Origin: Paracoccaceae bacterium
GTDB taxonomy: Bacteria; Pseudomonadota; Alphaproteobacteria; Rhodobacterales; Rhodobacteraceae
DNA length: 45,644 nt
NCBI GenBank assembly: GCA_027484915.1
Contig: JAIXSA010000002.1
Span: 1-45,644 of the forward strand
Direction: 5' to 3'
The translations under genes were made by a program, and so were the position numbers. Below are positions 8,133 to 23,287 of this stretch, in pieces. The notes below the pieces were generated by a model. It was not told where the DNA came from, made no database searches, and worked only from the letters and a program-made list of their open reading frames with translations. Positions within the stretch are counted from its first letter, which is position 1. Every line of letters begins with the position of its first letter.

Positions 8133-9454
8133 AGCTCCAGCCTTTCCGCCTGCGTCGAGACAAAGCGCCGTGTGGTGCCGAGGTCGGTCCTTGCCTGCTT
8201 GAAACTGGCCACGCGTGGATCTGCGGCGCGCAGGGTTTCCGCTCGCATCCGGCTGTCCTTGGCCAGATAGAACCGGCCCCCATGATACAGCGTGATCCGG
8301 TCCAGCCGGTCAAGCAGGGCAAGCGTCTTCGCAGTCACCGGAAAATCCAGCGCCAAGGTGTATCCTTCCATCGGGAACGAGAATGGGCTGTCCTGCGGGC
8401 CGAAGCGCTTCAGCACCGCAAGGAACGATGCGGAGCCAGCTTCGGCAATGGTGCGCAGCAAGCTGGAAAGACCCGTCTCTGCCCTGTCCAGCGGCAGAAC
8501 GCACTGGAACTGGGCAAAGCCCTTGCGGCCATAAATTCGGTTCCAGTCCAGGATCGCGTCAAGCGGATAGAAGTAGCGGTCCCAGTCTACAATCTGTTCG
8601 CCCGACTTCCGCTCTCCCGCGCGGTAGTACAGCGTGTTGAAGGCGCGCACCGACAGACGGTTCAGCGTGAACGCTGGCAGGTCGATAGGCACGCGGCGAC
8701 GAGGGGGCCGCTTCGTCTGAAACGGCTGGGTCCTTTGCGCAGGAGCCAGATCCTGGCGCGTCGCATGTTCGCCCAGCATCACCAGCGACCGCCCCAACCC
8801 CTCGCCCTCGGCCAGGCAGTCGATCCAGGCGACCGAATAGGTTGCGTCCTTTTCCGCTTCGAACGCGGCCATCGCGGCCTGCAGGTTCGGCGCCGGAATG
8901 GTGGTCTGCCGGATCCAGCCGCTTTCCACCGGCCGCAGCCTTATGGCCGCGCGCAGGATGATGCCGGTCAGCCCCATCCCGCCCAGAGTATGGTCGAACA
9001 GGACCGCGTTCTCGTCCCGCGAGCAGCGCGTGACCTTGCCATCCGGTCCCATCACGTCGATCCAGTCCACGCAGGCCCGGAAGCTGCCGTCCTTGTGGTG
9101 GTTCTTGCCGTGGACGTCGGCGGCGATGGCCCCGCCGATGGTCACGAATTTGGTGCCGGGCGTGACCAAAGGGAACCAGCCTTGCGGCAGGAAGGCCGCG
9201 ATCAGGTCGCCGAGAAGCACGCCGGCCTCTGCGACCACCTGTCCCGTGCCGGTATCAAAGGCGATCAGCTTGTCAAAGTGGCTGGTCTGCAACGTGGCCG
9301 TCCGGTTGATGGCACTGTCGCCATAGGCCCGACCATTGCCACGTGCGATGACGCTTTTGTGGCGGTCAAGCAGTGCCGCCAACTCGGTTTCTGTCCGTGG
9401 CCGAAAGACCTGTGCCTCGATCACCGGAAAGCGACCCCAGCCCGACTGCTTCAT
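8129..9454 (-). CDS. dprE1: DprE1-like FAD-dependent decaprenylphosphoryl-ribose oxidase
   Basis: This FAD-linked oxidase of 441 residues has the VAO/PCMH fold. The FAD-binding half shows VIARGNGRAYGDSAINR near residue 40, then TPGTKFVTIGGAIAADVHGK and NHHKDGSFRACVDWI around residues 100-130, which closely follow the DprE1 signature (GGAIA-D-HGKNHH--GSF). The C-terminal half contains FYPLDAILDWNRIYGRKGFAQFQCVLP, as in the substrate domain of DprE1 and of the rhizobial NoeO-type proteins. The expected reaction is oxidation of the 2'-hydroxyl of polyprenylphosphoryl-ribose to a ketone, with DprE2 completing the epimerisation. It overlaps both neighbours by 4 bases. Family assignment is firm; activity is inferred from the full set of pathway genes. 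Confidence 0.87.
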   Translation of the reverse strand: MKQSGWGRFPVIEAQVFRPRTETELAALLDRHKSVIARGNGRAYGDSAINRTATLQTSHFDKLIAFDTGTGQVVAEAGVLLGDLIAAFLPQGWFPLVTPGTKFVTIGGAIAADVHGKNHHKDGSFRACVDWIDVMGPDGKVTRCSRDENAVLFDHTLGGMGLTGIILRAAIRLRPVESGWIRQTTIPAPNLQAAMAAFEAEKDATYSVAWIDCLAEGEGLGRSLVMLGEHATRQDLAPAQRTQPFQTKRPPRRRVPIDLPAFTLNRLSVRAFNTLYYRAGERKSGEQIVDWDRYFYPLDAILDWNRIYGRKGFAQFQCVLPLDRAETGLSSLLRTIAEAGSASFLAVLKRFGPQDSPFSFPMEGYTLALDFPVTAKTLALLDRLDRITLYHGGRFYLAKDSRMRAETLRAADPRVASFKQARTDLGTTRRFVSTQAERLEL

Positions 9455-9873
9455 GCCGCGCGCCCCAGCAAGCGGTCGGGGAAGACAAAGCGCCGGTCAA
9501 GTTGGTACTTGACCACATAGCCGATGCTCAGCCCGATCACCGCGCCCAGCTCACGCATCGCTGTTGTCTGCCAGATGACCCAGAACAGCGTCTCGGTCCC
9601 CCAGAAGATCGCCGTGGTGACCAGCCCCATGACCGTGTAAAGCGTGAACTTGCGGCCGTGGTTCTTCAGGCCGGTCTCCTGGTCGAAGAAGATCCACCGC
9701 TTGTCCAGGATGTACTTCACCACAAGGCCGACCAGCGTCCCGGCGCCGACGGCCGCCATGAAGAACCAGGCCGACTGGCCGAAGCCCAGCACGGCGCGTT
9801 GCGTGGCAAGGTTCGCCAGGGTGGCGATCACGGCGAACGCGGCATAGCGCAGGACTAGGGTTCCCAGGCTCAC
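9451..9873 (-). CDS. GtrA-family membrane protein, probable lipid-linked sugar flippase component
   Basis: This is a 140-residue protein with four hydrophobic segments (about 7-27, 37-57, 75-95 and 105-125) and the GtrA-family pattern, including LVLRYAAFAVIATLANLATQ, LVKYILDKRWIFF and YVVKYQLDRRFVFPDR near the end. GtrA-like proteins such as mycobacterial Rv3789 lie next to dprE1/dprE2 and have been linked to translocation or membrane organisation of decaprenyl-phosphoryl-arabinose. Here it sits between the HAD-UbiA fusion and DprE1 with 4-base overlaps on both sides, which supports a role in moving the lipid-linked pentose across the inner membrane. That function is inferred from context. 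Confidence 0.85.
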   Translation of the reverse strand: MSLGTLVLRYAAFAVIATLANLATQRAVLGFGQSAWFFMAAVGAGTLVGLVVKYILDKRWIFFDQETGLKNHGRKFTLYTVMGLVTTAIFWGTETLFWVIWQTTAMRELGAVIGLSIGYVVKYQLDRRFVFPDRLLGRAA

Positions 9874-11300
9874 AGCAGGGCCCCTCCAATGACGAAGCCA
9901 AGGATCAGCAGGAAGCAGATCTGGCTGATGCGATCCTTGGCGGCGAAGACCACGGGATCGTCATGCATCCAGCCCCGGTGGGCGATCATGACTGTCCGCG
10001 TGATCCAGTATAGAAGGACCGCGCTGACACCCCAAAGCGCCTCGGGCCGGTGGTAAAGCCGGGCGACCTCGGGCGAATTGACGTGAAGGGCCATCACCAG
10101 CGCCGAGACGTATCCTGCGCTGATGGCGATCATCGAGATGATCGGCAGGTCATCCACATGGTAGCCGCGCCCGCTGGCTGTCAGCTTGCCGCGCGCAACG
10201 CTGTCGATCAGTTCCGCCTGCCGTTTCACCGCAGCAAGCGACAGGAAGAAGAAGGCCGAGAAGGCCAAAAGATACATGGACAACTCGATGCCTGTGGCGG
10301 CTCCGCCGGCAATGATGCGGGCCGTGTAAAGTGCCGCGAGGACACTGATGTCGATCACCATGCGACGCTTTAGGTTCAGCGAATAGGCGGTGGTCAGTAC
10401 CCAGTACAGAAGCATGACCAGCAGGAACTTGGCGCTTATCGCGGCGGCAACTACAATGCCCAGCACGATCAGGCCGACCGCCATCGCTGTCCCCTGCGCC
10501 AGACCGATGCTGCCCGAGGCGAAGGGACGGTTTCGCTTGCGCGGATGGGCCCGGTCTGCCGAGAGATCGAGAAGGTCGTTCAGCACATAGACGCTGGAGG
10601 CCACGAGGCAGAACGAGACAAAGGCCAGGGCCGAGGCAAGGAACGTCTCCATTGTCCACTGGTGGGCGGCAAGCATGGGCAAGAAGACCAGGACATTCTT
10701 CAGCCACTGATGCGGCCGCAGGGCTTGGGCGTAGGGCGTCCAGGACGGCTGCCTTGTCACCAGATGCTCGGTCGAGCTGCAGGCGCGCTCGGCCTCCCGC
10801 TGCAACGAGGCGGGGGCGTTGACGGTAATCGCCTGTGCGGCCCGCGCCCATACCGGGACATCGGCCCGCGCATCACCCATGTAGGCAAAGCTGCCGGGGC
10901 CGAACCGCTCTTCGATGAAGCGGGCCTTCTCGGCAGATTTGAGGTTTCTGGTGCCGTCCGATCCATGCACTTCGTCGAAGATGCCAAGGTGGCCACCGAT
11001 CCGGTCGGCGAACTGCTGGTCGCTTGCGGTCACAAGGACAGCGCGGCCGCCGTCCTGCCGCCACTTGGCGATGTAGTCCAGGACGGCGGGTTCATAGGGC
11101 AGGTTAGTGACCTCGACCGCCGAGGCCTCGGCCAGATACTGCTTCAGTGCGGCCCGACCCTTCAGCAGGGAAAGGGCCGAAAGCACCGGACTGCGCCAGT
11201 CGCGCCCCAAGGCTGACCAGAAGCTTTCGTACAGCATGTCGCTGCGCAAAAGCGTGCCATCCAGATCGACGACAAGGACGCGGGCGCCGGTCTCTCCCAC
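9870..11300 (-). CDS. HAD phosphatase-UbiA fusion, probable polyprenyl-phosphate phosphoribosyltransferase
   Basis: This is a two-domain protein of 476 residues. The N-terminal 190 residues are a HAD phosphatase: VLVVDLDGTLLRSD (nucleophile and acid Asp), VTASDQQF, the Lys in LKSAEKARF, and YMGDARADVPV. The C-terminal part is a UbiA-type prenyltransferase with about eight spans and the motif NDLLDLSADRAHPRKRNRP, like mycobacterial DPPR synthase (Rv3806c) and rhizobial NoeC. Expected chemistry is transfer of 5-phosphoribose from PRPP to a polyprenyl phosphate, then removal of the 5-phosphate by the fused HAD domain; mycobacteria use a separate phosphatase. It heads the operon and overlaps gtrA by 4 bases. 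The GTG at 11300 has AAAGG about 10 bases upstream and is preferred; a GTG at 11333 is the alternative. Confidence 0.85.
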   Translation of the reverse strand: MGETGARVLVVDLDGTLLRSDMLYESFWSALGRDWRSPVLSALSLLKGRAALKQYLAEASAVEVTNLPYEPAVLDYIAKWRQDGGRAVLVTASDQQFADRIGGHLGIFDEVHGSDGTRNLKSAEKARFIEERFGPGSFAYMGDARADVPVWARAAQAITVNAPASLQREAERACSSTEHLVTRQPSWTPYAQALRPHQWLKNVLVFLPMLAAHQWTMETFLASALAFVSFCLVASSVYVLNDLLDLSADRAHPRKRNRPFASGSIGLAQGTAMAVGLIVLGIVVAAAISAKFLLVMLLYWVLTTAYSLNLKRRMVIDISVLAALYTARIIAGGAATGIELSMYLLAFSAFFFLSLAAVKRQAELIDSVARGKLTASGRGYHVDDLPIISMIAISAGYVSALVMALHVNSPEVARLYHRPEALWGVSAVLLYWITRTVMIAHRGWMHDDPVVFAAKDRISQICFLLILGFVIGGALL

Positions 11301-11311
11301 CTCAGCGGCCC

Positions 11312-11329
11312 TTTCGCATCGATGCGAAA
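11312..11329. promoter_or_regulatory. Perfect 18-bp palindrome at the 5' end of the lipid-arabinose operon
   Basis: TTTCGCATCGATGCGAAA is its own reverse complement and has no spacer. It lies 12 bases before the preferred GTG start at 11300 and contains part of the presumed ribosome binding site; with the alternative GTG at 11333 it would be coding. The symmetry fits a dimeric regulator site or a small hairpin that could mask the Shine-Dalgarno sequence. No cognate regulator is adjacent. Confidence 0.45.
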
Positions 11330-11440
11330 CCACGGCGACCCAAAGACCCGGCGCTTGTGAGGCATGAGTTTCTCAATTGAGTGGTGAAACCGTCAAACAA
11401 ATGTAACCTTTTCATTATTCGGGACAATCTGGATCAAAGG

Positions 11441-11487
11441 GACAGTCGTACAGTGCCAAATGGACTTTGCGACACAGTACGTCTGTC
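11441..11487. promoter_or_regulatory. Imperfect inverted repeat in the 11301-11559 intergenic region
   Basis: GACAGTCGTAC (11441-11451) and GTACGTCTGTC (11477-11487) are inverted repeats matching at 10 of 11 positions, separated by 25 bases. The surrounding 11350-11480 is markedly AT-richer than the neighbouring genes and also holds the palindrome CTCAATTGAG (11372-11381). This is the likely promoter region of the minus-strand lipid-arabinose operon, between it and the SDR stop at 11560. I cannot assign -35 and -10 boxes with confidence. Confidence 0.3.
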
Positions 11488-11559
11488 GCCCCGGCTGTCA
11501 AGTTTGCACTGACTCACCGACGGACGGGTGCGACTGATCCATGCGCCCCGCGCGAGTCG

Positions 11560-12387
11560 TCAGACCCCGTCGAGGCTGCGTTTGAACGCCTCGGCCCAGT
11601 CGGGATGCCAGCGCGAGAGGGCAGGGCGGTTCTCGATAAGGTCGCCCGCCGCCCAGGCGATCCGGCGTTCGTCCAGCGGGCGGGTGACGTCGTTGTCGGG
11701 GCACAGGATGTAAAAGTCGCCCCGGTCCAGGCTTTCCAGCATGAAGCGCACGGCCTCTTCGGCCGTCCAGGCCCCGGCAGGCTTCGGGGCGCCCGAGGCT
11801 GCGGTCATTCCGGTGTGCACCCAGCCCGGAATCATCAGATGGGCCGAAACCTGCGATCCCGGCTGGTTGCGCAGGTCGTGTGCCAGAAGCTCGGTATAGG
11901 CTTTCACCGCCGCCTTCGAGACATTGTAGGCCGGATTGCCGGGGGGCAGGGTGATGCCCTGCTTGGATCCGGTGTTGATCACGGCAGCGGGCCGACCGTG
12001 CGCCAGCATCGCTGGGACGAAAGCCTGGGCCACGGTCAGGATACCGCCAAAGTTGACCGCCAGCGTGCGGTCCCAGGCGGCGCGGTCGGCCAGCGCCGAC
12101 GAGGGGATGCCAAGCCCGGCGTTGTTGAAGAGCAGCGTCACGGGCGGCAGCTCGGCGGCGATGGTCGCGGCGGCGGCAGCAATGCCGTCCCGATCCGAGA
12201 CGTCGACCGCGAAGGCCCGCGCGCCTGGCAGAGCGGCGGCGGCCTTGTCAAGCATCGGGCCGGGCAGGTCGATCAGTGCGACCCGCATCCCTTTGGCGGA
12301 CAGCGCCTGTGCCGCAGCAAGGCCGATGCCCGATGCCGCCCCGGTGATCACGGCGGTCATGCCGGCGGCAATGGCGGGATGGGTCAT
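11560..12387 (-). CDS. Short-chain dehydrogenase/reductase (classical SDR), substrate unknown
   Basis: This is an NAD(P)-dependent oxidoreductase of 275 residues. The Rossmann motif TGAASGIG is at about 15-22, NNAGLG is near residue 93, and the catalytic segment INTGSKQG...YNVSK is near 140-160, so Ser, Tyr and Lys are all present. The ATG at 12387 is preceded by AAAGG at a suitable distance; a second ATG at 12360 is possible but has a weaker site. It lies 39 bases after an aldo/keto reductase gene on the same strand, so the two are probably co-transcribed. Sequence alone does not reveal the substrate. I have no evidence linking the pair to either the hydrolase operon upstream or the lipid-arabinose operon downstream. 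Confidence 0.88.
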   Translation of the reverse strand: MTHPAIAAGMTAVITGAASGIGLAAAQALSAKGMRVALIDLPGPMLDKAAAALPGARAFAVDVSDRDGIAAAAATIAAELPPVTLLFNNAGLGIPSSALADRAAWDRTLAVNFGGILTVAQAFVPAMLAHGRPAAVINTGSKQGITLPPGNPAYNVSKAAVKAYTELLAHDLRNQPGSQVSAHLMIPGWVHTGMTAASGAPKPAGAWTAEEAVRFMLESLDRGDFYILCPDNDVTRPLDERRIAWAAGDLIENRPALSRWHPDWAEAFKRSLDGV

Positions 12388-12426
12388 GGGGGCAACCTTT
12401 CTGCAATAGGGGCGGGACGCGGATGT

Positions 12427-13398
12427 CTATTGGGTGACGGGCAGGCGGGGGGTGTAGGGCGCCTCCAGCCGGGTGATCTGTTCAGGGGTCAGGACCAGGT
12501 CAAGCGCGGCCAGGATATCGGCGAACTGTTCGGGCCGGGAATAGCCGACGATCGGGGCCACCACCCCCACTTTCTGCCGAACCCAAGCGAGAGCCACCTG
12601 CGCCATCGGACGCCCGATCTCATTGGCCACGTCCTGGACGGCATTGATCACGGCGGCGTCGGCGTCCTGGGTCTGCGCAAAAAGCATCCTGCCATAGGCG
12701 TCCGTCTCGGTCCGCGCGGTGGCCACACCCGCCGGACGCGCAAGCCGACCGCGCCCGATGGGGGACCAGGGGATCAGCCCCACGCCTTGGTCGAGGCAGA
12801 GCGGGATCATCTCGCGCTCTTCCTCGCGGTAGATCAGGCTGATCTGGTTCTGCATGCTGGTGAAGGGCGTCCAACCATTGCTCCGCGCTACGTCCTGCAT
12901 CTTGGCGAACTGCCAGGCCGACATGGTCGAGGCCCCGATGTAGCGGACCTTGCCGACGCGGATCAGGTCATCCAGCGTCTGCATCGTCTCGGCGATGGGG
13001 GTCGTGGGATCGAAGCGGTGGATCTGATAAAGGTCGATGTAATCGGTCTTCAGCCGCTTCAGCGACAGATCGACCTGCCGCAGGATCGCGCGGCGGGACA
13101 GGCCCTGGTGGTAGGGATCGGCATCCCCGAAGACCTTGGTCGCCAGGACGATGCGGTCGCGTGGCACTAGGGTCCAGAGCGTCTCGCCCAGGATCTCTTC
13201 CGAGGAGCCGTCGGAATAGACGTTCGCGGTGTCGAAGAAGTCGACCCCCGCCTCTACCGCCTGCGCGATCAGCGGGCGCGACTGGTCGGGCGGCAGCGTC
13301 CAGGGATGGCCACCCCGCTGCGGCTCGCCGAAGGTCATGCAGCCGATGCAGATTTCACTGACCCAGAGACCCGACCGTCCCACCTGCTTGCGTCGCAT
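12427..13398 (-). CDS. Aldo/keto reductase
   Basis: This is a TIM-barrel NADPH-dependent oxidoreductase of 323 residues. Catalytic-tetrad surroundings are visible: DTANVYSDGSSEE (Asp and Tyr), VLATKVFGD (Lys) and LYQIHRFDPTTP (His). IPWSPIGRGRLARP and the C-terminal VGVVAPIVGYSRPEQ contribute to cofactor binding. The protein resembles the large group of general stress or YajO-like aldo/keto reductases with broad carbonyl substrates. The start at 13398 (MRRKQVGRSGLWVSEICIG) is chosen because it begins just before the first conserved strand; an upstream in-frame start adds eight residues without homology. It is followed after 39 bases by an SDR gene. Confidence 0.9.
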   Translation of the reverse strand: MRRKQVGRSGLWVSEICIGCMTFGEPQRGGHPWTLPPDQSRPLIAQAVEAGVDFFDTANVYSDGSSEEILGETLWTLVPRDRIVLATKVFGDADPYHQGLSRRAILRQVDLSLKRLKTDYIDLYQIHRFDPTTPIAETMQTLDDLIRVGKVRYIGASTMSAWQFAKMQDVARSNGWTPFTSMQNQISLIYREEEREMIPLCLDQGVGLIPWSPIGRGRLARPAGVATARTETDAYGRMLFAQTQDADAAVINAVQDVANEIGRPMAQVALAWVRQKVGVVAPIVGYSRPEQFADILAALDLVLTPEQITRLEAPYTPRLPVTQ

Positions 13399-13515
13399 GG
13401 CATCGCCCTCCATTGCCCCCAAGGATCATGCAACGCTTCCCGCCCGGCGGATGCAAGCGGCATTGTTCTTCCACGCTGGCCTTGGCCGGCACTCCCTGGG
13501 CGTCAGCTGGTGCGA

Positions 13516-15402
13516 TCAGATCTCGAACGGGTGCTGGGCGTCGAACGCCGGGTCCTTGCGCCCGACGACCCAGTGGTTGGGCGTCTGGCTGTCGGGCATG
13601 AGCCGCCGGATCGCCCGGTGGAACGCGCCGTAATCGCCACGGAACCCGCCCTCGAGCACCTGCAGAAGACGGCTGGTGAACAGCCCGTTCAGATCACCGT
13701 CGGCCGAGGTCTGATTGTCCATGCACCCCGAAAGAAGCCGGACCGTGCAGTCTAGCGGTTGGGACACCCGCCGGGGTCGCCGAGGCTGGAGAGCGCCACC
13801 ATCGCCTGCAGCAACGGCAGCCGCTGCAGCGCGGTAGGTGTCCTGATGCGCCGCGACCACCGCCCGCCGGACGTCATCGGCCAAAGCGCGCGGGCGCCCG
13901 GCACCGCCGCCGCGCATCGCGACGATCCCGTCCGCCGTCGCACGCAGGACCGTGCCGCTGTGGCAGCTGTCCGAGATCACCAGCACCCGCACACCTTCCC
14001 GGAACGCCCGCCAGCCATCGTAGATCTCGTCGTCCAGCAGCATCCGGTCATAAAGGCACCAGGTTTCATCCTTGCCGTCATCCGTTTCGTCGCCGCCGAA
14101 GTCCGGGACCGAGGCCCCGTGGCCGGCATAGGTCAGAAGGAAGATGTCGCCGGCCTGCAGCTCGGCCGCGGCGGCGGCGATGCGGTCGCGGACGGCGCGC
14201 ACCGTGGCCTCATTGTCCTTCAGGACCTCCGGCTTGGCATATCCCGCTTCCTCGGCGATGCGCGCCATTGCGTTCGCGTCGTTGTGGCAGCCGTACAGCG
14301 TCTGCGGCCCGCCGTAATGGCCGGGATCAACGACGTTCATCCCGATGTGCAGCGACAGGCCCCGGTTGAGGCCGGTCGGCGACTTCAGCCCCTTGCGTCG
14401 CGTCGCGGGGACAGGGGTCTTGGCCTTGCCCCGGCCGACCTTCGGCGCTGCGGGTGGCGTGATCGACCGGCCGGTCGCCTGCCGGATCGCCGCATCAAAT
14501 TTTGAGGCAACCTTGCGGAATCCGGGGGCATTGGGGTGCAACTCGTCCGTCCATTCACCGGCAACGACTGTCCCGCGGTTGTCCAGGAAGGTCACATGCG
14601 GATGGCGGGCGGCAAGCCTCGTCATGGCCAGGCCGAAGCGGCTGATCAGCTCGGCAACGATCGCGCGCTGGAAGGCCTTGTCGTTGATCCCCAGTGCCTT
14701 CATCGGCTTGCCCAGCCACTTTCCACTGGCCGGGATTGCCAGGTCGTAGCCGTGGCAGATGATCCCGACGCCCGGCGCCTTGCGCGCGACGTTGCGGAAG
14801 ATCTGGTCGAACTGCTGCACCGCCCGGTCCAGAAGCCCGGTGAACGACGACCGAACATGCTCGGCCGGGGTCAACGCGGGATCGAAGGGCCGCAGATGCG
14901 TTTTCAGGTCGCCGCCACCCAGGGCGTCGTTGCCGCCCGCCGAAAGCAGAAGGAGCCGTGCACCAACCCGGCGCACTTCGTCCAGGTATTCATCCTGGTC
15001 CAAAATCTGCTGCAGCGTATCCCCCGCCGCCGCGAGATGCGAGATCGCCCAGGTGTCGTTCAGCGCCCCGACCACGTCGAGACCGGGGTAGGTAAACCAG
15101 CTGTCGCCCTCGGCCACCAGGATCGGCCCTTTGTAGCCACCCAACAGCTTCAGCTCGAACTGGCCGCGCCGCAAAAGTCGCACCATCGCGTTGAACCCCG
15201 GCAGGGCAAGTGCGGCCCGCTGGCGTTCTTCCTCGGTCACACCCAGATCGACCGCCTCGGGGTCGTAGGTGACGTGCAGGCGGAAGGGTTCGTCCGGGTC
15301 CTCGGTCACCTTGAAGTACCTGGCGAAGTCCTCGACCTTTGCGCCGGGTGTGTAGATCTTCTTTAGCAGGTCTTCGGCTTTGATCTTCTTTGCCATGTTC
15401 AT
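13516..15402 (-). CDS. SGNH hydrolase-caspase fusion protein
   Basis: This is a 628-residue, two-enzyme fusion. Residues about 92-310 form an SGNH/GDSL-type hydrolase: AEGDSWFTYPG with nucleophile S101, the GGND block at 156-159, and TDELHPNAPGF with D286 and H289. A basic linker (about 318-345) leads to a caspase/metacaspase-like C14 domain: GCHNDANAM at about 371, LLTYAGHGA with catalytic H428, VISDSCHSGT with catalytic C480, and SGCMDNQTSADGDLNGLFT at about 559-577. The start MNMAKKIKAEDLL shows no signal peptide or membrane span, so it is probably cytoplasmic. AAGGAC precedes the ATG at 15402. It is third in an operon with a papain-like protease and an amidase/M15 protein. An alanine-rich insert (about 505-545) follows the cysteine. 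Enzyme classes are clear; targets and trigger are unknown. Confidence 0.88.
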   Translation of the reverse strand: MNMAKKIKAEDLLKKIYTPGAKVEDFARYFKVTEDPDEPFRLHVTYDPEAVDLGVTEEERQRAALALPGFNAMVRLLRRGQFELKLLGGYKGPILVAEGDSWFTYPGLDVVGALNDTWAISHLAAAGDTLQQILDQDEYLDEVRRVGARLLLLSAGGNDALGGGDLKTHLRPFDPALTPAEHVRSSFTGLLDRAVQQFDQIFRNVARKAPGVGIICHGYDLAIPASGKWLGKPMKALGINDKAFQRAIVAELISRFGLAMTRLAARHPHVTFLDNRGTVVAGEWTDELHPNAPGFRKVASKFDAAIRQATGRSITPPAAPKVGRGKAKTPVPATRRKGLKSPTGLNRGLSLHIGMNVVDPGHYGGPQTLYGCHNDANAMARIAEEAGYAKPEVLKDNEATVRAVRDRIAAAAAELQAGDIFLLTYAGHGASVPDFGGDETDDGKDETWCLYDRMLLDDEIYDGWRAFREGVRVLVISDSCHSGTVLRATADGIVAMRGGGAGRPRALADDVRRAVVAAHQDTYRAAAAAVAAGDGGALQPRRPRRVSQPLDCTVRLLSGCMDNQTSADGDLNGLFTSRLLQVLEGGFRGDYGAFHRAIRRLMPDSQTPNHWVVGRKDPAFDAQHPFEI

Positions 15403-15444
15403 CGTCCTTTCCGGATCGCAGACGGGCGTCGAAGCCCTTGGGGG

Positions 15445-17334
15445 TCAGGTGGTCTTCAAGGCATTCTGCCGCACGACCTCATGCAGCAAGATCGCGTTCG
15501 AGGTCAGGTCGCCGCTGGGACGGTCCGGTGCGGTCAGCGTCCGGGGTAGGGGATCGCCCCGCGGCGTGCCGTCGAAATCGTGGGCCCCGACCAGCTTCAC
15601 AGGCTCTTCCTCGAAGGCGCGCGCGACGAGGTCGGTCCAGGATCGGCTATAGGCCCCGACAGATAGCCGCTCGTCGAAGGTCGCGTCGGGGCGGAAGATC
15701 GTGGCGCGGCCCGGCCAGCCTTCAAGAAAGGAGCCGATGTGGTCGTCGAACTCCTGCGGTCGGACCAGGGGCGCAACCAGCGTCAGCTGGTCCAGCACCC
15801 GGCCCAGGTCGTCGCGCAGCCGTCCCGACTTGAACGGGCCCGCCAGAAGCGCCACCAGCAGCAGGACCCCGGCACCTTCGGTCTGCAGATGCAAGCGACG
15901 GTCCGTCTTCAGGCAAAGCTCGACCAGTGCTGTCAGCGCATGCGTCGCATCCCCGGTCTGCCGCGCGGCGATCTGCGCCTGCCGACGCACGTCGCGCCAG
16001 AGCGCCCGGCCGACCGGGCGGGTCATCTTCTCGATCCGGGCGTCGGCATCGTCCTTGTTGCCGTTCGCTATGGCCGCCGCGTGTTCGAAAAGCGGTTTCA
16101 GCGCCTCGGCCGCCCCGCTGATCAGCCCGTTGGCCCAGACCAGCGATATCGCGTGGAACCCCTGCGCCTTGTCAGCGGCAATCTCGCTGGCCAGACGCCA
16201 CATCACCTCTTCCAGCCGCCGCGTGTCGCCGTGCAGGGTCAGGCGGATATGGCGCACTTCGTCCCGCTTCTTCTTGGTCTCCAGATACTCCAGCGTGGTC
16301 TCGAGGCAGCGGCGCGAACTGGGATAGGCCCCGGTCGTGACATGCCGGCCATCGTCGAGATGCAGGTAGTGGCCAAGCACCTCCAGCCGCCGGACCGAGG
16401 GTGCACCCAGCGCAGGCTGGTCCGCCCCGAACATCGCGCTGCCGTGCTGGCCGATGGCAAAGCGGAAGGCGTCCGGCGTGGGGGCCGCAAGACGCAGCGC
16501 CCAGGCGTCCAGCACATTTGCGGCCCAGTCGGTGTAGGGCCAGAGCGCGATGCCCGGCAGGGGCGGGCCGCCGGCAAAGCGATATCCGCCCCAACCTCCC
16601 CCCCATGAGTTCAGGACCAGAAACCCGTTGGCGTCATAGCCCACAATGGCGAAGGCATGGCCGTAGGTGGTCTCTCCTGCCGCGCCGATCACCCCGTCCG
16701 ACAGGGCCTGCCAGCCGTCATGGACCTGCGCCGACACGTAAAGCGCCCCGGCCTCGACCAGAGCCGTGTGCATGTCGTTGATGAACGACCGCACGCGGTA
16801 ATAGGCCCCGAGGGTCAGCTTCCGCGCCTCGACGGAAACCGCGACGGATGTGCTGTCGAAAAACTGTCCCTTGCGTGCCAACGGGCGCTGGTTCCACGTC
16901 GCCTCGCTGCAGACGCCCGAGTTGTAGAACCCCTTCAGCCCAGAGCGCAGGCTGAACACCTCCTGCACGGTCTGACCGGCTTCGTGACGCTCGATTTCCA
17001 GCGCCATTGCGTAAAGCATGTCCGCGCTGGAAGGCTGGACGTTCTGCCTTGCGCCTGCGGGATCGCCCTGCTGGCGGTAGCTTTCGATCCGCTGGATGTC
17101 GATCAGGGCGGCCAGCGCCTGACCGACGCAGGTCGGTGTCTTCTTCTGGTCGCGCAGCCGGAAGATGCCGGCGTAGTCTTTCTGCGCCGGGTCCAGTGCC
17201 GCGCAAAGGAACCGTTCGGGCAAAAGGCCCAGCGACGGCCGGTAGATCAGGTCGCGCACGTCCTGCGGATCGCGCCCGACCAGGCCCTTGGCCACCGCAT
17301 CCGCCCCTGCCGCTGCGCGGGGCGGCCGGGTCAC
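15445..17334 (-). CDS. Papain-like (C1) cysteine protease with C-terminal hydrolase-like region
   Basis: This is a 629-residue protein. Residues about 40-260 form a C1 peptidase: LRDQKKTPTCVGQA (oxyanion Q63, nucleophile C69), TYGHAFAIVGYD (H226) and LVLNSWGGGWGG (N242). The remaining ~330 residues, from IRLTLHGDTRRLEEV through FHAISLVWANGLI, RPVGRALWRD, LHLQTEGAGVLL and YSRSWTDLVARAFEEEP, resemble from memory an alpha/beta-hydrolase-like family. The expected Ser of the nucleophile elbow is replaced (TEGAG), so that domain may be non-catalytic. No signal peptide is seen. The GTG at 17334 overlaps the stop of the upstream amidase gene by 4 bases (GTGA), which decides the start; a longer open frame runs back inside that gene in another frame. 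The next gene follows after 42 bases. Substrate is unknown. Confidence 0.85.
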   Translation of the reverse strand: MTRPPRAAAGADAVAKGLVGRDPQDVRDLIYRPSLGLLPERFLCAALDPAQKDYAGIFRLRDQKKTPTCVGQALAALIDIQRIESYRQQGDPAGARQNVQPSSADMLYAMALEIERHEAGQTVQEVFSLRSGLKGFYNSGVCSEATWNQRPLARKGQFFDSTSVAVSVEARKLTLGAYYRVRSFINDMHTALVEAGALYVSAQVHDGWQALSDGVIGAAGETTYGHAFAIVGYDANGFLVLNSWGGGWGGYRFAGGPPLPGIALWPYTDWAANVLDAWALRLAAPTPDAFRFAIGQHGSAMFGADQPALGAPSVRRLEVLGHYLHLDDGRHVTTGAYPSSRRCLETTLEYLETKKKRDEVRHIRLTLHGDTRRLEEVMWRLASEIAADKAQGFHAISLVWANGLISGAAEALKPLFEHAAAIANGNKDDADARIEKMTRPVGRALWRDVRRQAQIAARQTGDATHALTALVELCLKTDRRLHLQTEGAGVLLLVALLAGPFKSGRLRDDLGRVLDQLTLVAPLVRPQEFDDHIGSFLEGWPGRATIFRPDATFDERLSVGAYSRSWTDLVARAFEEEPVKLVGAHDFDGTPRGDPLPRTLTAPDRPSGDLTSNAILLHEVVRQNALKTT

Positions 17335-18623
17335 CGTCCTGCCCAGTCGGCTTGGGTCCCCCGGGTGTCGATATGGACGAAGTTCTGACTTGGGTAGATG
17401 CCGATGCCGCCCCGGAAACGCTCCTCCTCGTCCCGCAGGCTGGCCGCGATCCGGCGCCAGACTTCGGGGGTGCCGGACTGCCCGGTGAAGTCGATCGCAT
17501 TGAACTGCATGTGAAAGCTGTTCCGCTCGCCGCCGATGCAGCGGTTGTAGTCGGGGCTTCTGTAGCAGCTGAGGATGCGGATGGCCGCGCCAAGGCGGTC
17601 CCGGATGCGGTCCAGCATCTGCGCAGTGTTGGCGATCCGCGGCCAAAGCTCGCGCGGCGGGAACGAGTTCAGCGCCTTGCAGGGACCGCTGGCATTGCTG
17701 GCGCCGAGTTCAAGAAACTCCTCCGGACGGAAGTGCTTCAGACCCAGGCTGCCGATGAATGCCGCGAAATCCCCGGCCTCGGACCACTGGCGCAGCTCGC
17801 GCGTCAGCGCGGGACTGGTGGTACGCCCGCGCAGGAAGCTGGTCGGAAACGCCGGGCTGGGCAAAGCGACGCGTTCGCTCCCCTCATCCGTGCCGATCCC
17901 GCGCTGGCGTGGCAGTGCAGCACCGGAGAGGCCAAGGAACTTTTCCACCTGGGCCGGAACCACCGTACCTGCCTCGGCTTCGATGGCATCGCCGAAGCTG
18001 CGCGTCACGCCCCTTTGCCGGCTCAGGGTCGCCAGATAGGTTTCGATCCCCTGCGCGATGGCCTTGGCAAGGGCGTCCAGATAGCCCGTCGTCCGCAGGC
18101 GCCGTTCTTCGTCGGCTTGGTCAAGGAAGCTTACCTCGGCAAGGCAGGCCGCCGTGCCGGGGTCGTGGTAGGCCAACCGCAGCACGCCCAGCGACTGCGG
18201 CTTGATCCGGGTCGCCGGATCGAAGGATTTGTTGCGGTCGCGCAGCCCGGTGACCGGCAACAGCGCATCTTGCACGCAAAGGCTAAGCTTTGCCGACCGC
18301 GCGGTGTGGTTCAGCTCGACCAGCGTCTCGGTCCCTTGCGCCGTGTGGCCGGTCGATCCGTTGAAATGGATCGAAACGAACGCATCGGCCCGCAGCCGCT
18401 TGGCCACGTTCGCCCGGTCGCGCAGCCGCAGGTTCACATCCGTCGTCCGCGTCGCCACCGCGCGGTGGCCCGCTTGCGTCAGCCGCGCGACGATGCGTAG
18501 GCCGAGGTCGAGGGTAAGCGTCTTTTCCAGAGTGCCCGCCGGTCCGACGGCGTTGTTCCAGGTCGAATCCCTGGGAATGGTTGCAGTCCCGCCATGTCCG
18601 GGATCGATGACGATAATTGCCAA
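17331..18623 (-). CDS. N-acetylmuramoyl-L-alanine amidase fused to a peptidase M15 domain
   Basis: This is a peptidoglycan-hydrolase fusion of 430 residues. Residues about 1-190 are an amidase_3 domain with zinc ligands H10 (IDPGHGG), E33 (GTLEKT) and H86 (VSIHFNG) and catalytic E163 (LAEVSFLDQ). Residues about 290-430 are an M15A/VanY-like DD-carboxypeptidase or endopeptidase domain: LSCYRSPDYNRCIGGERNSF, then the H-x6-D metal motif in FHMQFNAIDF and the distal His in FVHIDTRG. The start is taken as TTG at 18623 because GGAGGA lies 6 bases upstream; the in-frame TTG at 18638 would put that site inside the gene. Translation then begins directly at the first strand, so there is no signal peptide, which is odd for cell-wall enzymes. 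It heads the three-gene hydrolase operon. Confidence 0.87.
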   Translation of the reverse strand: MAIIVIDPGHGGTATIPRDSTWNNAVGPAGTLEKTLTLDLGLRIVARLTQAGHRAVATRTTDVNLRLRDRANVAKRLRADAFVSIHFNGSTGHTAQGTETLVELNHTARSAKLSLCVQDALLPVTGLRDRNKSFDPATRIKPQSLGVLRLAYHDPGTAACLAEVSFLDQADEERRLRTTGYLDALAKAIAQGIETYLATLSRQRGVTRSFGDAIEAEAGTVVPAQVEKFLGLSGAALPRQRGIGTDEGSERVALPSPAFPTSFLRGRTTSPALTRELRQWSEAGDFAAFIGSLGLKHFRPEEFLELGASNASGPCKALNSFPPRELWPRIANTAQMLDRIRDRLGAAIRILSCYRSPDYNRCIGGERNSFHMQFNAIDFTGQSGTPEVWRRIAASLRDEEERFRGGIGIYPSQNFVHIDTRGTQADWAGR

Positions 18624-18678
18624 TTCCTGTCCTCCCAAAATGATTGTCGCGGTTCAATGGCGGCCATGGTGCCGCAGA

Positions 18679-18693
18679 TTGACCTTACGTCAA
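18679..18693. promoter_or_regulatory. Inverted repeat upstream of the hydrolase operon
   Basis: TTGAC-CTTAC-GTCAA is a perfect 5-base inverted repeat with a 5-base spacer, 56 bases before the proposed TTG start of the amidase/M15 gene and inside the 132-base gap after the inositol aldolase gene. Read on the minus strand it begins TTGACG and could overlap a -35 box, but no convincing -10 box follows at 16-18 bases. It is a candidate operator for the hydrolase operon. Confidence 0.3.
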
Positions 18694-18755
18694 GTAATGG
18701 GTTCACTACCTTTGGGCGTTTGCTCAGGACCGGTTCGCGACGGCGAGTGCAGGAC

Positions 18756-19595
18756 TTAGACGCGTCCCGAGGCCCCGAAATTGCGCAGGATGGCGCGGCA
18801 GGCCAGCGCCACCGGGGCTTCGGTTTCGCGCAGGATTTCGATCCGGTCAAAGCGTGCGGGGTCGCGGCCCACCGCCTCACGCAGGGCCACCCCGAAGGCC
18901 ATGCGCAGTTCGGTGCCGACGTTGAACTTGGCGATGCGGCTGGTGGCCGCAAGGCTTGCCCGTTCGGCAGCAGGCACGCCAGATCCGCCGTGGATTACCA
19001 GTGCTACGTCGGTCAGCGCCTCGATGGCGCGCAGGCGTTGCAGGTCCAGGCCGCCGCCGGGGGTTTCCTGCAGGTGCAGGTTGCCGATGGACACCGCCAT
19101 CGCATCGACGCCGGTTTCCCGCGCAAAGCGCGCCGCCTCCTCCGGGTCCGTCCCGGCCGAGGCCGCACCGCCGACATAGCCGACGAAACCGATCTCGCCC
19201 TCGCAGCCCACCCCCGCCGCATGGGCCAATGCTGCCACCTTGGCAGTCAGTTCGATGTTCTGCTCCAGCGGCAGACGCGAGCCGTCGAACATCAGCGAGG
19301 TGAAGCCCGCGTCCAGCGCCGCGCGGCATTCGTCCAGGGTCGTCCCGTGGTCGAGATGCGCCACCACTGGGACGCTTGCCGTCTCGGCAAGGTGGCGGAA
19401 CATCCGGCCAAGGATCGGCAGGGGCGTGTGCGCGCGGCACCCCGGCCCGGCTTGCAGGATGATCGGCGCCCGTTCCGCTTCGGCGGCGGCGACATAGGCG
19501 CGCATGTCCTCCCAGCCAAGGCAGACAAGGCCGGGGACCGCATAGCCGTCCCGCAGCGCCGGTTGCAGCACCTCGGCCAGCGTCGCCAGCGTCAT
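18756..19595 (-). CDS. iolJ: Class II aldolase, IolJ-like (inositol catabolism)
   Basis: This is a class II fructose-bisphosphate-aldolase-family protein of 279 residues. Zinc-site and active-site blocks are present: VPVVAHLDHG (near 75-84), SLMFDGS (~103), GCEGEIGFVGY (~130), VSIGNLH (~172) and ALVIHGGSG (~200), with KFNVGTEL near 222. In inositol catabolism this family cleaves 2-deoxy-5-keto-gluconate 6-phosphate, the product of IolC, to dihydroxyacetone phosphate and malonate semialdehyde. The position at the end of iolD-iolC-iolB, with its start overlapping the iolB stop by 4 bases, supports that assignment over a glycolytic or tagatose aldolase. It is the last gene of this arm of the cluster. 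Confidence 0.83.
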   Translation of the reverse strand: MTLATLAEVLQPALRDGYAVPGLVCLGWEDMRAYVAAAEAERAPIILQAGPGCRAHTPLPILGRMFRHLAETASVPVVAHLDHGTTLDECRAALDAGFTSLMFDGSRLPLEQNIELTAKVAALAHAAGVGCEGEIGFVGYVGGAASAGTDPEEAARFARETGVDAMAVSIGNLHLQETPGGGLDLQRLRAIEALTDVALVIHGGSGVPAAERASLAATSRIAKFNVGTELRMAFGVALREAVGRDPARFDRIEILRETEAPVALACRAILRNFGASGRV

Positions 19596-20431
19596 TTGAA
19601 CTTGGCCACCATGTCCATGATCCCCGGGATCGTGTGCACCTGCGCGGCGTGGGTCGGCTGGAAATACTGCTTAAGGCTTCGCTGCGACTGACCGCCAAGG
19701 ATCGTGAAGTAGTACATCTCGTAGCCTGGCAGCACGCAGCAGGGGTGGTAGCCCTTGTCGATCAGGACCGTCGAGCGGTTCATGATGTGATAGGCATCGC
19801 CCGGCTCGTTATCCACCCGCTGCAGCATCTGCAGGCCCGACCCATAATCGGGGCGGAAGCGAAAGTTGTAACATTCGTCATGCCGCGTCTCGTCCGGCAG
19901 GCGGTCGGTGTCGTGCTTGTGCGACGGAAAGCCCGACCAGCCGCCCGCGCCGACGGTGTAAAGCTCGGACACCAGCAGGCGGCCCACGCGGTCATGATAG
20001 GCCGCGCCCAGGATGTGCTTGATCTTGCGGTGGGTCTTGGTGTCGTCCGACCCGTATTGCACCTTGTCGATATCAGCGGCCCGAACAGCGAAGGGGCGCA
20101 AGGTTTCAGCAAATTTCGCGCCCGCGATGAAGACTTCGGCCGCAGTCTGCGCCGTGATCCGGGCGCCGGTGTCTGTCGGGACATAGACCCCTTCCGGCTC
20201 TCCGTCCCAGACATCCACGCCGCGGTTGCCGATCCCCGCAAACATCTCGCCCGCGGTTTCCACCGTGACCGTGCCGGTGGCGGGAACGATGCAGGTCTCG
20301 TAGCCGGGGGTGCGGTAGTCGAAGGTTTCGCCTGCCTTCAGGTGGACGATGTTGAAATAGACATAGGGGACCAGCGCGTGCTCCCGGTCGACGATGGGCT
20401 GGTTCCGGTTGTCATGGGGGACAATATGCAT
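19592..20431 (-). CDS. iolB: 5-deoxy-glucuronate isomerase
   Basis: IolB converts 5-deoxy-D-glucuronate to 2-deoxy-5-keto-D-gluconate in the myo-inositol pathway. The 279-residue protein has the double-cupin pattern of the family. The second cupin shows SGFPSHKHDTDRLPDETRHD around residues 165-185, with the conserved SHKHD metal ligands and the downstream E, followed by YYFTILGGQSQRSLKQYFQP close to the C-terminus. The ATG at 20431 begins MHIVPHDN, the usual length; an upstream open frame belongs to iolC in another frame. It starts 10 bases after the iolC stop and overlaps the aldolase start by 4 bases. Confidence 0.93.
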   Translation of the reverse strand: MHIVPHDNRNQPIVDREHALVPYVYFNIVHLKAGETFDYRTPGYETCIVPATGTVTVETAGEMFAGIGNRGVDVWDGEPEGVYVPTDTGARITAQTAAEVFIAGAKFAETLRPFAVRAADIDKVQYGSDDTKTHRKIKHILGAAYHDRVGRLLVSELYTVGAGGWSGFPSHKHDTDRLPDETRHDECYNFRFRPDYGSGLQMLQRVDNEPGDAYHIMNRSTVLIDKGYHPCCVLPGYEMYYFTILGGQSQRSLKQYFQPTHAAQVHTIPGIMDMVAKFK

Positions 20432-20441
20432 GGGGGTTCCT

Positions 20442-21416
20442 TTATGCGGACGGGCCGCTGTGGTTGGCCAGGAAGGCGTCAAGCTCGGCGTGGGTCGGCA
20501 TGGCGGGGGCGCAGCCGACGCGGGCCACGACCATCGCCGCCGCAGCCGAGCCGCGCAGGACTGACTCCCGCACCGGCAGGCCATCGGCAAGTCCCGCGAT
20601 GAAGGCGCCAAGGAAACTGTCGCCGGCGCCGGTGGGTTTCAGCGCCTGGGTCGGATAGATGCCGGTGGCGAACTCACCCTCTGCCGTGATGGTGACGGCG
20701 CCCTTTTCGCCCATCTTGTAGACGACGATCCGCGCCCCGTCCGCGATCAGCGCGCGCGCCTTGTCGAGACCGCGGTCGGGATGCCCGGCCATGAAGCCGA
20801 ACTCGACATCGTTGCCGACGATGATGTCACACAGTGCACCGGCGCGCGAATAGACCTCGGCGGCCACAGCAGGCGAGGGCCAGGAATAGGGGCGGTAGTC
20901 CACGTCGAAGATCAGCGGCAGACCGGCGGCGCGGGCCAGCTCGAAGGCGCGGAACGCGGCGCTGCGCGACGGTTCGGCGGCCAGGACCGTGCCGGTGGTG
21001 ATCAGCCCCGAGAAGGCGGGATAGTCGACAGGTTCGACATCCGCGACCGTCATCGCGAAGTCAGCCGCATTGTTGCGGTAGATCACCGACTGGCAGTCGT
21101 CCGCCCGCGTCTCGACCACAGCCAGCGAATTGCGCGGCTCGCCCGCGACGGCACGAACGTGGCTGCGGTCGATGCCGTAGGCGTCAAGCTGCCCAAGGCA
21201 GTAGCGGCCCACCGCATCGTCCGAGACGCAGGTCAGCAGCGCTGCGGTGCACCCCTGCCGGGTCAGGGCGACCGCGATGTTGGCCGAAGATCCGCCAAGC
21301 GCCGTCGTGAAGCGCGCGGCCTCTTCGATCCGCGTGCCCGGCGGGTCGGCATAAAGGTCCATGCCCGCCCGTCCGATCACCAGGAAATTACGGCCCCGAA
21401 GCCGCGCCAGGGACAT
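20442..21416 (-). CDS. iolC: 5-dehydro-2-deoxygluconokinase (PfkB family)
   Basis: This is a ribokinase-fold sugar kinase of 324 residues that phosphorylates 2-deoxy-5-keto-gluconate at C6. The N-terminal FLVIGRAGMDLYADPPGTRIE is characteristic of IolC, followed by GGSSANIAVALTRQGC, the PfkB family signature 1. The C-terminal signature 2 with the catalytic Asp is LKPTGAGDSFLGAFIAGL near residue 265. The chosen ATG at 21416 is in TGATG context: its first base is shared with the stop of iolD, indicating translational coupling. The gene is placed exactly between iolD, which supplies the precursor of its substrate after ring opening, and iolB. Confidence 0.94.
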   Translation of the reverse strand: MSLARLRGRNFLVIGRAGMDLYADPPGTRIEEAARFTTALGGSSANIAVALTRQGCTAALLTCVSDDAVGRYCLGQLDAYGIDRSHVRAVAGEPRNSLAVVETRADDCQSVIYRNNAADFAMTVADVEPVDYPAFSGLITTGTVLAAEPSRSAAFRAFELARAAGLPLIFDVDYRPYSWPSPAVAAEVYSRAGALCDIIVGNDVEFGFMAGHPDRGLDKARALIADGARIVVYKMGEKGAVTITAEGEFATGIYPTQALKPTGAGDSFLGAFIAGLADGLPVRESVLRGSAAAAMVVARVGCAPAMPTHAELDAFLANHSGPSA

Positions 21417-23287
21417 CAGACGCCACGCCTTTGGCCTGCGCGCCCGGCCTCGACCTCGGCGCGCTTTTCGCGGACGCCCGCACTGGCGGAAACTTCGGCG
21501 GTGCCGATTTCCCACCAGGCGTGGCCTTGCGTGGTCCAGCCCTCATAGGGGTCGACCAGCATGACGATGACGCTGGTCTTCGTGGCGGCCTTCGCGCGTT
21601 GGAAGGCCTCGGCCAGCGCAGCGGGGTTCGCCACGGTTTCGGCATTGGCCCCCATCGCCCGGGCATGCGCCTCGAAATCCACCGCGAAAGGTTCGGCCAC
21701 GGTCGGGCAATCGGCGATCAGGTTGTTGAAGCTGTCCTGCCCGGTGTTGTTCTGCAGCTTGTTGATGACCGCAAAGCCGCCGTTGTCCAGCACCAGGACG
21801 ATCATCTTCTTTCCCGTCAGCACCGAGGAATAGATGTCCGAGTTCATCAGAAGGTAACTGCCGTCGCCCACGAAGACGACGGTGTCGCGGTCCGGCTCGA
21901 CTTCCGCCTGCGCGATCCGGGCGCCCCAGCCCCCCGCGATCTCGTAGCCCATGCAGGAAAAGCCGAACTCCACGTCCACCGTGCCGATGCCAAGGGTGCG
22001 CCAGTTCGCCGTTACCTCGGCCGGCAAGCCCCCCGCCGCCGTCACCACCCGGTCGCGCGGGTGGCAGAGGGCGTTCACGACGCCAATTGCCTGGGCGTAA
22101 GAGTTCGGGCGGTTGCCGTGCGCCACGTTCGTGGCGACGTAGTCGTCCCAGGACTTGCGCTCGGCCTGGGCCCGGGTGACCCACTCCGTCGGCGCGCGGT
22201 GGCCCTTTAGGGCGGCGTCCAGCGCCAGAAGTCCCAACTTGGCATCTCCGACCACGGGCAGCGACAGGTGCTTGGCCGCGTCATGCCGCCCGGCGTTCAG
22301 GCCGATAAGTCGGGCTTCTTGGGAAAAGACTGTCCAGGACCCGGTGGTGAAGTCCTGCAGCCGCGTGCCGACGGCCAGCACGACATCGGCCTGGCCGGCG
22401 ATGGCGTTGGCGCTGTCCGATCCCGTTACGCCCAGAGGGCCGATGTTCAGCGGATGGTCGGCCAGAAGGTTCGCGCGCCCGGCGATGGTTTCCACCACGG
22501 GAATGCCGTGCCGTTCGGCAAATGCGGTCAGTTCGGCCACCGCGCCCGAATACTGCACACCGCCACCCGCCACGATCACCGGGCGCTGGGCAGTTGCCAG
22601 AAGCGCTGCTGCTTCGGCGATCTCGTGTGCGTCGGGTGACTGGCGACGGATGCGGTGCAGGCGGCGGGCGAAGAAGGCGCTGGGGTAGTCATAAGCCCAT
22701 CCCTGCAGATCCTGTGGCAGGCCCAGGAAAGCCGGTCCGCAGTCGGCGGGGTCAAGCATCGTGGCCAGCGCCGCAGGCAGCGACTGCAGGATCTGCGCGG
22801 GATGGGTGATCCGGTCCCAGTAGCGGCTGACCGCCTTGAAGGCGTCGTTGACGCCCAGCGTCGGATTGCCGAAATGCTCCAGTTGCTGCAGCACCGGGTC
22901 GGGCAGGCGGGTCAGAAAGGTGTCGCCGCACAGCATCAGCATCGGCAGCCGGTTGGCATGGGCCAGTGCCGCCGCCGTCAGAAGGTTCGCCGTGCCAGGC
23001 CCGGCGCTGGCCGTGCAGAACATGAAGCGGCGGCGCAAGTTGTATTTGGCATAGGCCGCTGCGGCAAAGCCCATGCTCTGCTCGTTCTGGCCGCGATAGA
23101 GCGGCATCTCCTTGTGAACCGGATAGAGCGCTTCGCCCAGACACGGGACATTGCCGTGGCCAAAGATGCCGAAGCCCCCGCCACAGATGCGGACCTCTTG
23201 CCCGTCGATCTCGATATGCTGCGCCATCAGCCAGCGCACGATGGCCTGTGCCACGGTCAGCCGGATCGTCTCGCCTGTGCTGGTCAT
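21416..23287 (-). CDS. iolD: 3D-(3,5/4)-trihydroxycyclohexane-1,2-dione hydrolase (ThDP-dependent)
   Basis: IolD opens the inositol-derived ring to give 5-deoxy-D-glucuronate, using thiamine diphosphate. The protein has 623 residues, the usual length. The N-terminal domain has IFGHGNVPCLGEALY and the catalytic Glu region RGQNEQSMGFAAAAYAK near residue 65. The middle domain has RPVIVAGGGVQYSGA. The C-terminal ThDP domain has VEFGFSCMGYEIAGGWG and the metal motif VFVGDGSYLLMNSDIYSS near 475. It is the first gene of the minus-strand iol arm and is preceded by the divergent operator region at 23341-23368. No iolA and no inositol transporter are seen nearby, so the pathway must be completed elsewhere. 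Confidence 0.95.
   Translation of the reverse strand: MTSTGETIRLTVAQAIVRWLMAQHIEIDGQEVRICGGGFGIFGHGNVPCLGEALYPVHKEMPLYRGQNEQSMGFAAAAYAKYNLRRRFMFCTASAGPGTANLLTAAALAHANRLPMLMLCGDTFLTRLPDPVLQQLEHFGNPTLGVNDAFKAVSRYWDRITHPAQILQSLPAALATMLDPADCGPAFLGLPQDLQGWAYDYPSAFFARRLHRIRRQSPDAHEIAEAAALLATAQRPVIVAGGGVQYSGAVAELTAFAERHGIPVVETIAGRANLLADHPLNIGPLGVTGSDSANAIAGQADVVLAVGTRLQDFTTGSWTVFSQEARLIGLNAGRHDAAKHLSLPVVGDAKLGLLALDAALKGHRAPTEWVTRAQAERKSWDDYVATNVAHGNRPNSYAQAIGVVNALCHPRDRVVTAAGGLPAEVTANWRTLGIGTVDVEFGFSCMGYEIAGGWGARIAQAEVEPDRDTVVFVGDGSYLLMNSDIYSSVLTGKKMIVLVLDNGGFAVINKLQNNTGQDSFNNLIADCPTVAEPFAVDFEAHARAMGANAETVANPAALAEAFQRAKAATKTSVIVMLVDPYEGWTTQGHAWWEIGTAEVSASAGVREKRAEVEAGRAGQRRGV

Follow-up and report, generated by a model that had tools for sequence, protein, structure and literature searches.

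A conserved, modular linkage of SGNH-caspase, papain-like and cell-wall hydrolase genes seen from a Rhodobacteraceae genome

What might three adjacent hydrolase genes, encoding between them five enzyme-like domains, do together in a bacterium that keeps them among metabolic genes? We addressed this question for a stretch of 45,644 nucleotides (nt; hereafter 'the window', contig JAIXSA010000002.1 of assembly GCA_027484915.1, from a Paracoccaceae bacterium), in which three minus-strand genes, here called A, B and C in the order in which they are read, occupy positions 13516–18623. Comparison with other genomes shows that the five domain families are linked beyond the window as neighbours and as fusions, and that this linkage is real, conserved and modular. 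As to its purpose we tentatively favour, with a confidence short of even, the reading that the three products cooperate as a cytoplasmic, protease-triggered set that would work from within to break down the membrane and wall of the cell that makes them.

The positions of the genes were confirmed to the base. Gene A (17331–18623, 430 residues) has a TTG start with a strong ribosome-binding site ahead of it, the GTG start of gene B (15445–17334, 629 residues) overlaps the stop of gene A (GTGA overlap), and gene C (13516–15402, 628 residues) begins 42 nt after gene B; all domains described below likewise lie on the minus strand. By Pfam, gene A encodes an N-acetylmuramoyl-L-alanine amidase (Amidase_3, residues 4–194, 18042–18614; H10, E33, H86 and E163) followed by an M15 peptidase (Peptidase_M15_3, residues 319–419, 17367–17669; H371, D378 and H417), the bracketed residues being invariant in 36/36 aligned sequences. 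As judged from Pfam and alignment, gene B combines a papain-like C1 peptidase of the cathepsin B/xylellain-like kind (residues 17–285, 16480–17286) with an alpha/beta-hydrolase-like domain (residues 316–600, 15535–16389). Its Pfam match to Peptidase_C1 is weak (3.9e-5), and Q63 (the papain oxyanion Gln), C69, H226 and N242 are invariant in 48/48 sequences. The second half was assigned from homologues, four of whose 48 members match DUF900 (best E-value 4.3e-4), while LIDHydrolase (2) and Abhydrolase_6 (1) were matched more weakly. A fold search with gene B was filled by matches to the C1 domain, so the alpha/beta-hydrolase reading is drawn from these Pfam matches together with the nucleophile counts: two of the 48 members have a GHSAG elbow, nine have Ser at position 487, and gene B itself has Gly there, for which reason its alpha/beta-hydrolase-like domain is predicted to be inactive.

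Gene C, delimited by Pfam, alignment and a structural model, matches Lipase_GDSL_2 and Peptidase_C14 (E-value 1.9e-21 for the latter) and thus joins an SGNH hydrolase (residues 61–312, 14467–15222; S101, N158, D286 and H289) to a metacaspase-like caspase (residues 346–628, 13519–14367; H428, D478 and C480). A conserved N-terminal region (residues 4–60, 15223–15393, from the alignment) precedes the SGNH domain not only in SGNH-caspase proteins but also in several SGNH proteins of other make-up. H428 and C480 are present in 20/20 aligned homologues, D478, two residues before C480, is also invariant, and the p20 caspase fold with its His-Cys dyad is that of prokaryotic metacaspases/orthocaspases. 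The nearest solved structure is GSU0716 (3BIJ, ∼41% identical to the caspase domain), and the model also matches plant metacaspases. The alignments were made of sequences picked from search lists (36 for gene A, 48 for gene B, 20 for gene C), and they bear out the original prediction, which had described three minus-strand genes with a GTGA overlap and five enzyme domains with intact catalytic residues: every residue it named is invariant.

If these genes belong together, their families should meet elsewhere, and they do. A genome-collection scan with an SGNH-caspase profile yielded 564 loci, the best 80 of which comprised 44 full-length and 36 partial ones; we examined the 44 together with two plasmid loci and two further relatives (48 loci, window excluded), 46 of which have at least 600 nt upstream and could be scored for a C1 gene. 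In 34/46 loci a C1 gene lies immediately upstream on the same strand, always with its alpha/beta-hydrolase-like half, and a hand reassignment adds L056 as a 35th, the ORF (open reading frame) caller having extended the SGNH-caspase frame over the C1 gene. The second most widespread neighbour family occurs in only 10 of the 47 loci compared, so that the pairing exceeds mere conserved synteny. Distances between C1 proteins and between SGNH-caspase proteins correlate strongly (Mantel r 0.956, none of 2000 permutations as high; 36 pairs including the window, falling into 16 groups at <70% identity), a correlation that would also be expected from shared descent or co-inheritance alone. Among caspase-only partial loci, a C1 gene lies directly downstream of the caspase gene in 3/35 (L072, L097 and L100, whose records place them in Deltaproteobacteria, Rokuibacteriota and Epsilonproteobacteria, respectively).

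The link is frequent but not obligatory, since the 34/46 seen from the SGNH-caspase side compare with 3/10 from the C1 side. Ten of the 46 loci are without a C1 gene (L027, L029, L030, L034, L040, L043, L051, L053, L058 and L064; the named records among them include Thauera, Zoogloea and Lamprocystis), and in L102 it lies 3.7 kb away on the opposite strand. Class-wide co-occurrence was assessed from the C1 side only: 13/385 genomes matched, and of the 12 loci beyond the window's own we examined 10, leaving out the short C1-only matches in G247 and G476. All 10 carry the C1 plus alpha/beta-hydrolase pair, with an SGNH gene nearby in three (L126, L127 and L128) and no such partner in seven. The complete trio, in which amidase-M15 is a gene of its own, is seldom seen: it was read directly on one contig (L022) and is deduced on four more (80969, 55132, 37904 and 14967 bases) from equal contig sizes in three match lists, all of which give the 55132-base contig as Roseomonas sp. 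CAU 1739.

Fusions extend the linkage. M15 is fused to SGNH-caspase in 22/48 loci, and the SGNH domain also occurs in SGNH-amidase-M15 (L103, L120 and L121), SGNH-amidase-M74-S8 (an amidase-subtilase; L104), SGNH-trypsin-endonuclease (Endonuclease_NS in L116 and L117, Exo_endo_phos in L089) and SGNH-trypsin proteins (L119, L122 and L126, the L119 match lying under the Pfam cut-off); L136 carries an amidase-trypsin-nuclease fusion. These arrangements settle one point that the original prediction had left to comparison, namely whether the families are ever found together elsewhere: they are. That the window merely holds a chance neighbourhood of three housekeeping hydrolases is accordingly a highly improbable explanation: each family does also occur alone, as the seven partnerless C1 loci illustrate, but the adjacency is repeated and the same modules have fused independently several times, which largely refutes it.

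Several other genes accompany these modules. In a homology search of L001–L137, six loci (L028, L037, L106, L114, L119 and L126) proved to have a haem peroxidase gene immediately ahead of C1, three of the calls being confirmed by Pfam and a fourth annotated in its record; 0 matches to haem peroxidase in the host genome are uninformative, since the control matched no genome. L028 also contains a CHAP/peptidoglycan-binding gene. An unnamed module of ∼250 residues without Pfam match is fused behind SGNH-caspase-M15 in many loci (for example the last ∼250 residues of L048:9989-13369) and stands as a separate gene directly upstream of SGNH-caspase (L029:3869-4630) and of SGNH-amidase-M15 (L103:5505-6278). 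L022 holds an enlarged same-strand run (1221-11763) of a PAP2 phosphatase gene, a subtilase-like gene (so labelled by eye from its sequence), amidase-M15, a pair of unnamed genes, C1 and SGNH-caspase. The second of the unnamed pair has a homologue in L021, where it likewise comes before C1. In 10 loci (including L033:8130-9203), SGNH-caspase-M15 is followed by a gene of 350–366 codons whose product seems to have a hydrophobic segment close to its N-terminus; the named loci looked at belong to Aliiroseovarius, and the two proteins tested had no Pfam match. Finally, on the Rhizobium leguminosarum plasmid pRle248d a gene annotated as 'YEATS-associated helix-containing protein' (L102:11165-11875) lies directly upstream of SGNH-caspase, and no homologue of it was present among the other loci collected.

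How the parts might act on one another is suggested by the linker between the SGNH and caspase domains of gene C (residues 313–345, 14368–14466, delimited by model and composition), of which residues 313–332 are modelled with a predicted local distance difference test (pLDDT) score <50. Its Lys+Arg fraction is 0.219 vs 0.117 for the whole protein, and is higher than that of the whole protein in 20/20 homologues; elsewhere such enrichment was seen in 12/36 gene A linkers, 3/48 gene B linkers and 18/32 gene B N-termini. The Asp before the catalytic Cys (D478) is a residue that we take, from metacaspase structures, to line an S1 pocket for Lys/Arg. Because a disordered Lys/Arg-rich linker thus adjoins a metacaspase-type site, the simplest reading is that the caspase would cut its own linker and free the SGNH enzyme. 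The earlier proposal that the proteases control the wall hydrolases is, to this extent, fairly inferred from linker and active site. For the N-termini we used a crude hydropathy score over the first 45 residues; it exceeded 2.0 in 1/56, 1/56 and 0/120 members of the three families, and by this measure the products of genes A–C look cytoplasmic.

On the reading that we favour, the proteins would reside in the cytoplasm as a dormant set until some trigger activates the caspase, which would then cut after Lys/Arg in its own linker and release the SGNH enzyme. The papain-like enzyme could add a further proteolytic activity, with the alpha/beta-hydrolase domain, predicted to be inactive in most members, used for binding or sensing. 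Attack of the SGNH enzyme on envelope lipids would give the amidase and the M15 peptidase access to peptidoglycan without export signals, and the outcome would be lysis or death of the cell; in related gene sets some of these parts are exchanged for modules of the trypsin-nuclease, subtilase or haem-peroxidase kind.

A number of observations weigh against this reading. Scans of the cassette with Pfam, PADLOC and PHROGs revealed no sensor, NLR, STAND ATPase or adaptor, nor did it contain a holin or exporter, and no PHROGs holin family matched. Among 385 genomes of the class, a full-length match to the gene A family was found only in the window's own genome; this adds to the C1-less loci, the displaced C1 gene of L102, the partnerless C1 loci and the rarity of the full trio described above. 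The hydropathy test is a crude basis for a cytoplasmic location, access of the wall hydrolases by way of the SGNH enzyme is a guess, and cleavage, toxicity and lysis are proposals from sequence. In addition, the host genome encodes on another contig a match to VipB, the type VI sheath protein (E-value 4.3e-128), which leaves export conceivable. The main rival accordingly holds that these are antibacterial enzymes exported by a type VI or other non-classical route to attack competitors, the caspase and C1 peptidase maturing the cargo. Such a role would suit a multi-enzyme toolkit, and the haem peroxidase genes upstream of C1 and the CHAP/peptidoglycan-binding gene of L028 would fit it, as would the VipB match. 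It sits poorly with the lack of an obvious N-terminal signal by the hydropathy test, with the VipB match lying on another contig, and with the absence of VgrG, PAAR, adaptor or any other secretion domain from genes A–C (Pfam) and of an immunity-type fourth gene from the cassette, although type VI effectors may lack both a linked VgrG, PAAR or adaptor and an immunity gene. On balance we regard export as unlikely.

The original prediction had also envisaged an anti-phage module, which the data do not support. Residence in a defence island was rejected: fifteen PADLOC families were detected around 14 loci, none in more than 3 of the 126 neighbour ORFs scanned. The scan covered 126 out of a set of 156 ORFs (16 loci), all but the 30 that belong to L101 and L102; ORFs of >650 or <150 residues or cut by the end of a locus were dropped, and one ORF of L114 was replaced by the haem-peroxidase ORF overlapping it on the opposite strand. 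In the window the neighbours are metabolic genes, and of the three proteins only that of gene C has a PADLOC match, to the generic 'caspase' model (E-value 2.4e-8). Phage origin was rejected as well, because neither gene B nor gene C has a match among phage records and gene A matches only in part: 151 of 50,697 records match some of it, and none covers 80% of the protein. PHROGs lysis families do match gene A. In viral contigs, only 4 of 31 pattern stretches proved to be relatives, all confined to the SGNH part at 24–29% identity. Abortive infection proper, in which phage infection would trigger the set to kill the cell, is decidedly unlikely in our estimate. It can draw on the proposal, in the accessible part of PMC7159879, that alphaproteobacteria and multicellular bacteria have conflict systems built on caspases and trypsin, on the SGNH-trypsin-endonuclease fusions of L116 and L117, and on the 11 plasmid records with a full SGNH-caspase protein; the missing defence neighbours, the generic nature of the PADLOC match and the lack of a sensor gene in the cassette speak against it.

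The genomic setting bears on a third alternative. The cassette is flanked by an aldolase gene on one side and an aldo-keto-reductase gene on the other, directly behind myo-inositol genes in the same orientation and within a region of myo-inositol and other metabolic genes. Since window positions 18760–24401 and 11560–13462 align in one order to the same-genus relative L112 (G224), in which 24 nt rather than 5,297 nt separate the two blocks, positions 13463–18759 (no strand) are likely an insertion between metabolic genes that are neighbours in that relative. The empty site was seen in this one relative only; in G216 (L113) the right flank alone aligns. Within the inserted stretch the three genes are the only reading frames consistent with an operon, and the 132 nt separating the aldolase gene from gene A contain a short inverted repeat, TTGACGTAAGGTCAA (18679–18693), which could be an operator or a chance occurrence. 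A search of 31 other genomes of the genus did not recover the SGNH-caspase protein in full; matches there are short and caspase-only. The host genome itself has two further caspase-like genes, unrelated to the cassette, divergent and ∼6 kb apart (L125, G000:C19:5001-25000; 6536–8722 on the minus and 14372–16318 on the plus strand), and similar caspase-only pairs occur in many of those 31 genomes. Digestive or recycling hydrolases without any killing role, obtaining nutrients from dead cells or imported macromolecules, would be at home behind myo-inositol genes, and relatives of the cassette likewise adjoin varied metabolic genes. We nonetheless hold this to be quite unlikely: the crude test gives no secretion signal, a caspase with a Lys/Arg-rich linker would be odd in a digestive set, and the distribution is patchy (full-length SGNH-caspase in 3/198 genomes of the family sample).

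Do the genes then belong to a system already described? In the portions accessible of a metacaspase survey (PMC3501461), four metacaspases are linked to Amidase_2, one of them, from Chitinophaga pinensis, also to a GDSL lipase, and a Geobacter sulfurreducens metacaspase operon contains an amidase gene. The amidase of the cassette is by contrast Amidase_3 with M15; the word 'papain' has 0 occurrences in that text, which names no papain-like partner, as opposed to the C1 peptidase here, and the GDSL/SGNH-caspase pairing, seen there in one protein, characterises a large family in the present data. The NucA-trypsin conflict systems termed 'System 3' (Kaur et al., 2020; PMC7159879, available part) are mostly alphaproteobacterial, comprise trypsin, S8 peptidases and a nuclease, and include papain- and lysozyme-like wall enzymes. 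A likeness lies in L116 and L117, where SGNH proteins related to gene C (40% identity across 277 residues) carry just such a trypsin-NucA pair as a fusion; the cassette, however, has neither NucA nor trypsin (no Endonuclease_NS or trypsin in genes A–C, Pfam), the only NucA-region match elsewhere in the host genome spans 98 residues on contig C18, and SGNH, GDSL and amidase do not occur in the part of the Kaur et al. text at hand. The VMAP/vWA-MoxR ternary systems of the same source pair a caspase gene with an alpha/beta-hydrolase-superfamily gene, to which the putative alpha/beta-hydrolase-like half of gene B may correspond. No vWA, MoxR or VMAP was found in the cassette (by Pfam, on some rather than all ORFs of the window), and the candidate partner domain there forms one protein with a papain-like peptidase and mostly lacks the nucleophile. 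'Amidase', 'GDSL' and 'peptidoglycan' do not occur in the available text of a follow-up on Death-like/TRADD-N domains (PMC8195603).

Host lysis in Caulobacter requires the peptidase domains of LypA and LypC (a trypsin-endonuclease), the downstream lytic effectors being unknown according to the accessible part of PMC13236601. Such CARD-NLR/LypABC systems resemble the set in being alphaproteobacterial and, as we propose for it, peptidase-dependent in lysing the host; they differ in that genes A–C, when scanned, contained no CARD, NLR-like ATPase or trypsin. In common with phage endolysin cassettes the set has amidase and M15 enzymes for the wall that lack an obvious signal and appear to be cytoplasmic; the difference is the holin, which is missing here. 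With the defining cores absent, we do not class the set as a System 3, VMAP or CARD-NLR member, though it may work like these systems. In the literature searched, which excluded subscription papers and preprints, we did not find a paper on this gene set, and within that literature it is apparently undescribed.

A wider reading, which we consider unlikely, would see in genes A–C a single version of an extensive and so far undescribed arsenal by which bacteria demolish cells. The SGNH enzyme would be its hub, and modules of several kinds (caspase, cathepsin-like, trypsin, subtilase, nuclease, wall-hydrolase and haem-peroxidase) would be exchanged by fusion and neighbourhood. The arsenal might then supply the executioners that LypABC-type peptidase immune systems switch on to lyse alphaproteobacterial cells, a functional analogue, perhaps, of the contents of the lysosome or the neutrophil granule. 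Two decades after caspases became known in bacteria, few of their targets have been identified. A caspase-SGNH protein that is conserved alongside a cathepsin-like peptidase, and in many species fused to wall peptidases, offers concrete candidates for caspase substrates and for executioners. It also bears on a question stated as open in PMC13236601 (in its available part), namely the identity of the lytic effectors that peptidase-based systems, Caulobacter LypABC among them, have downstream.

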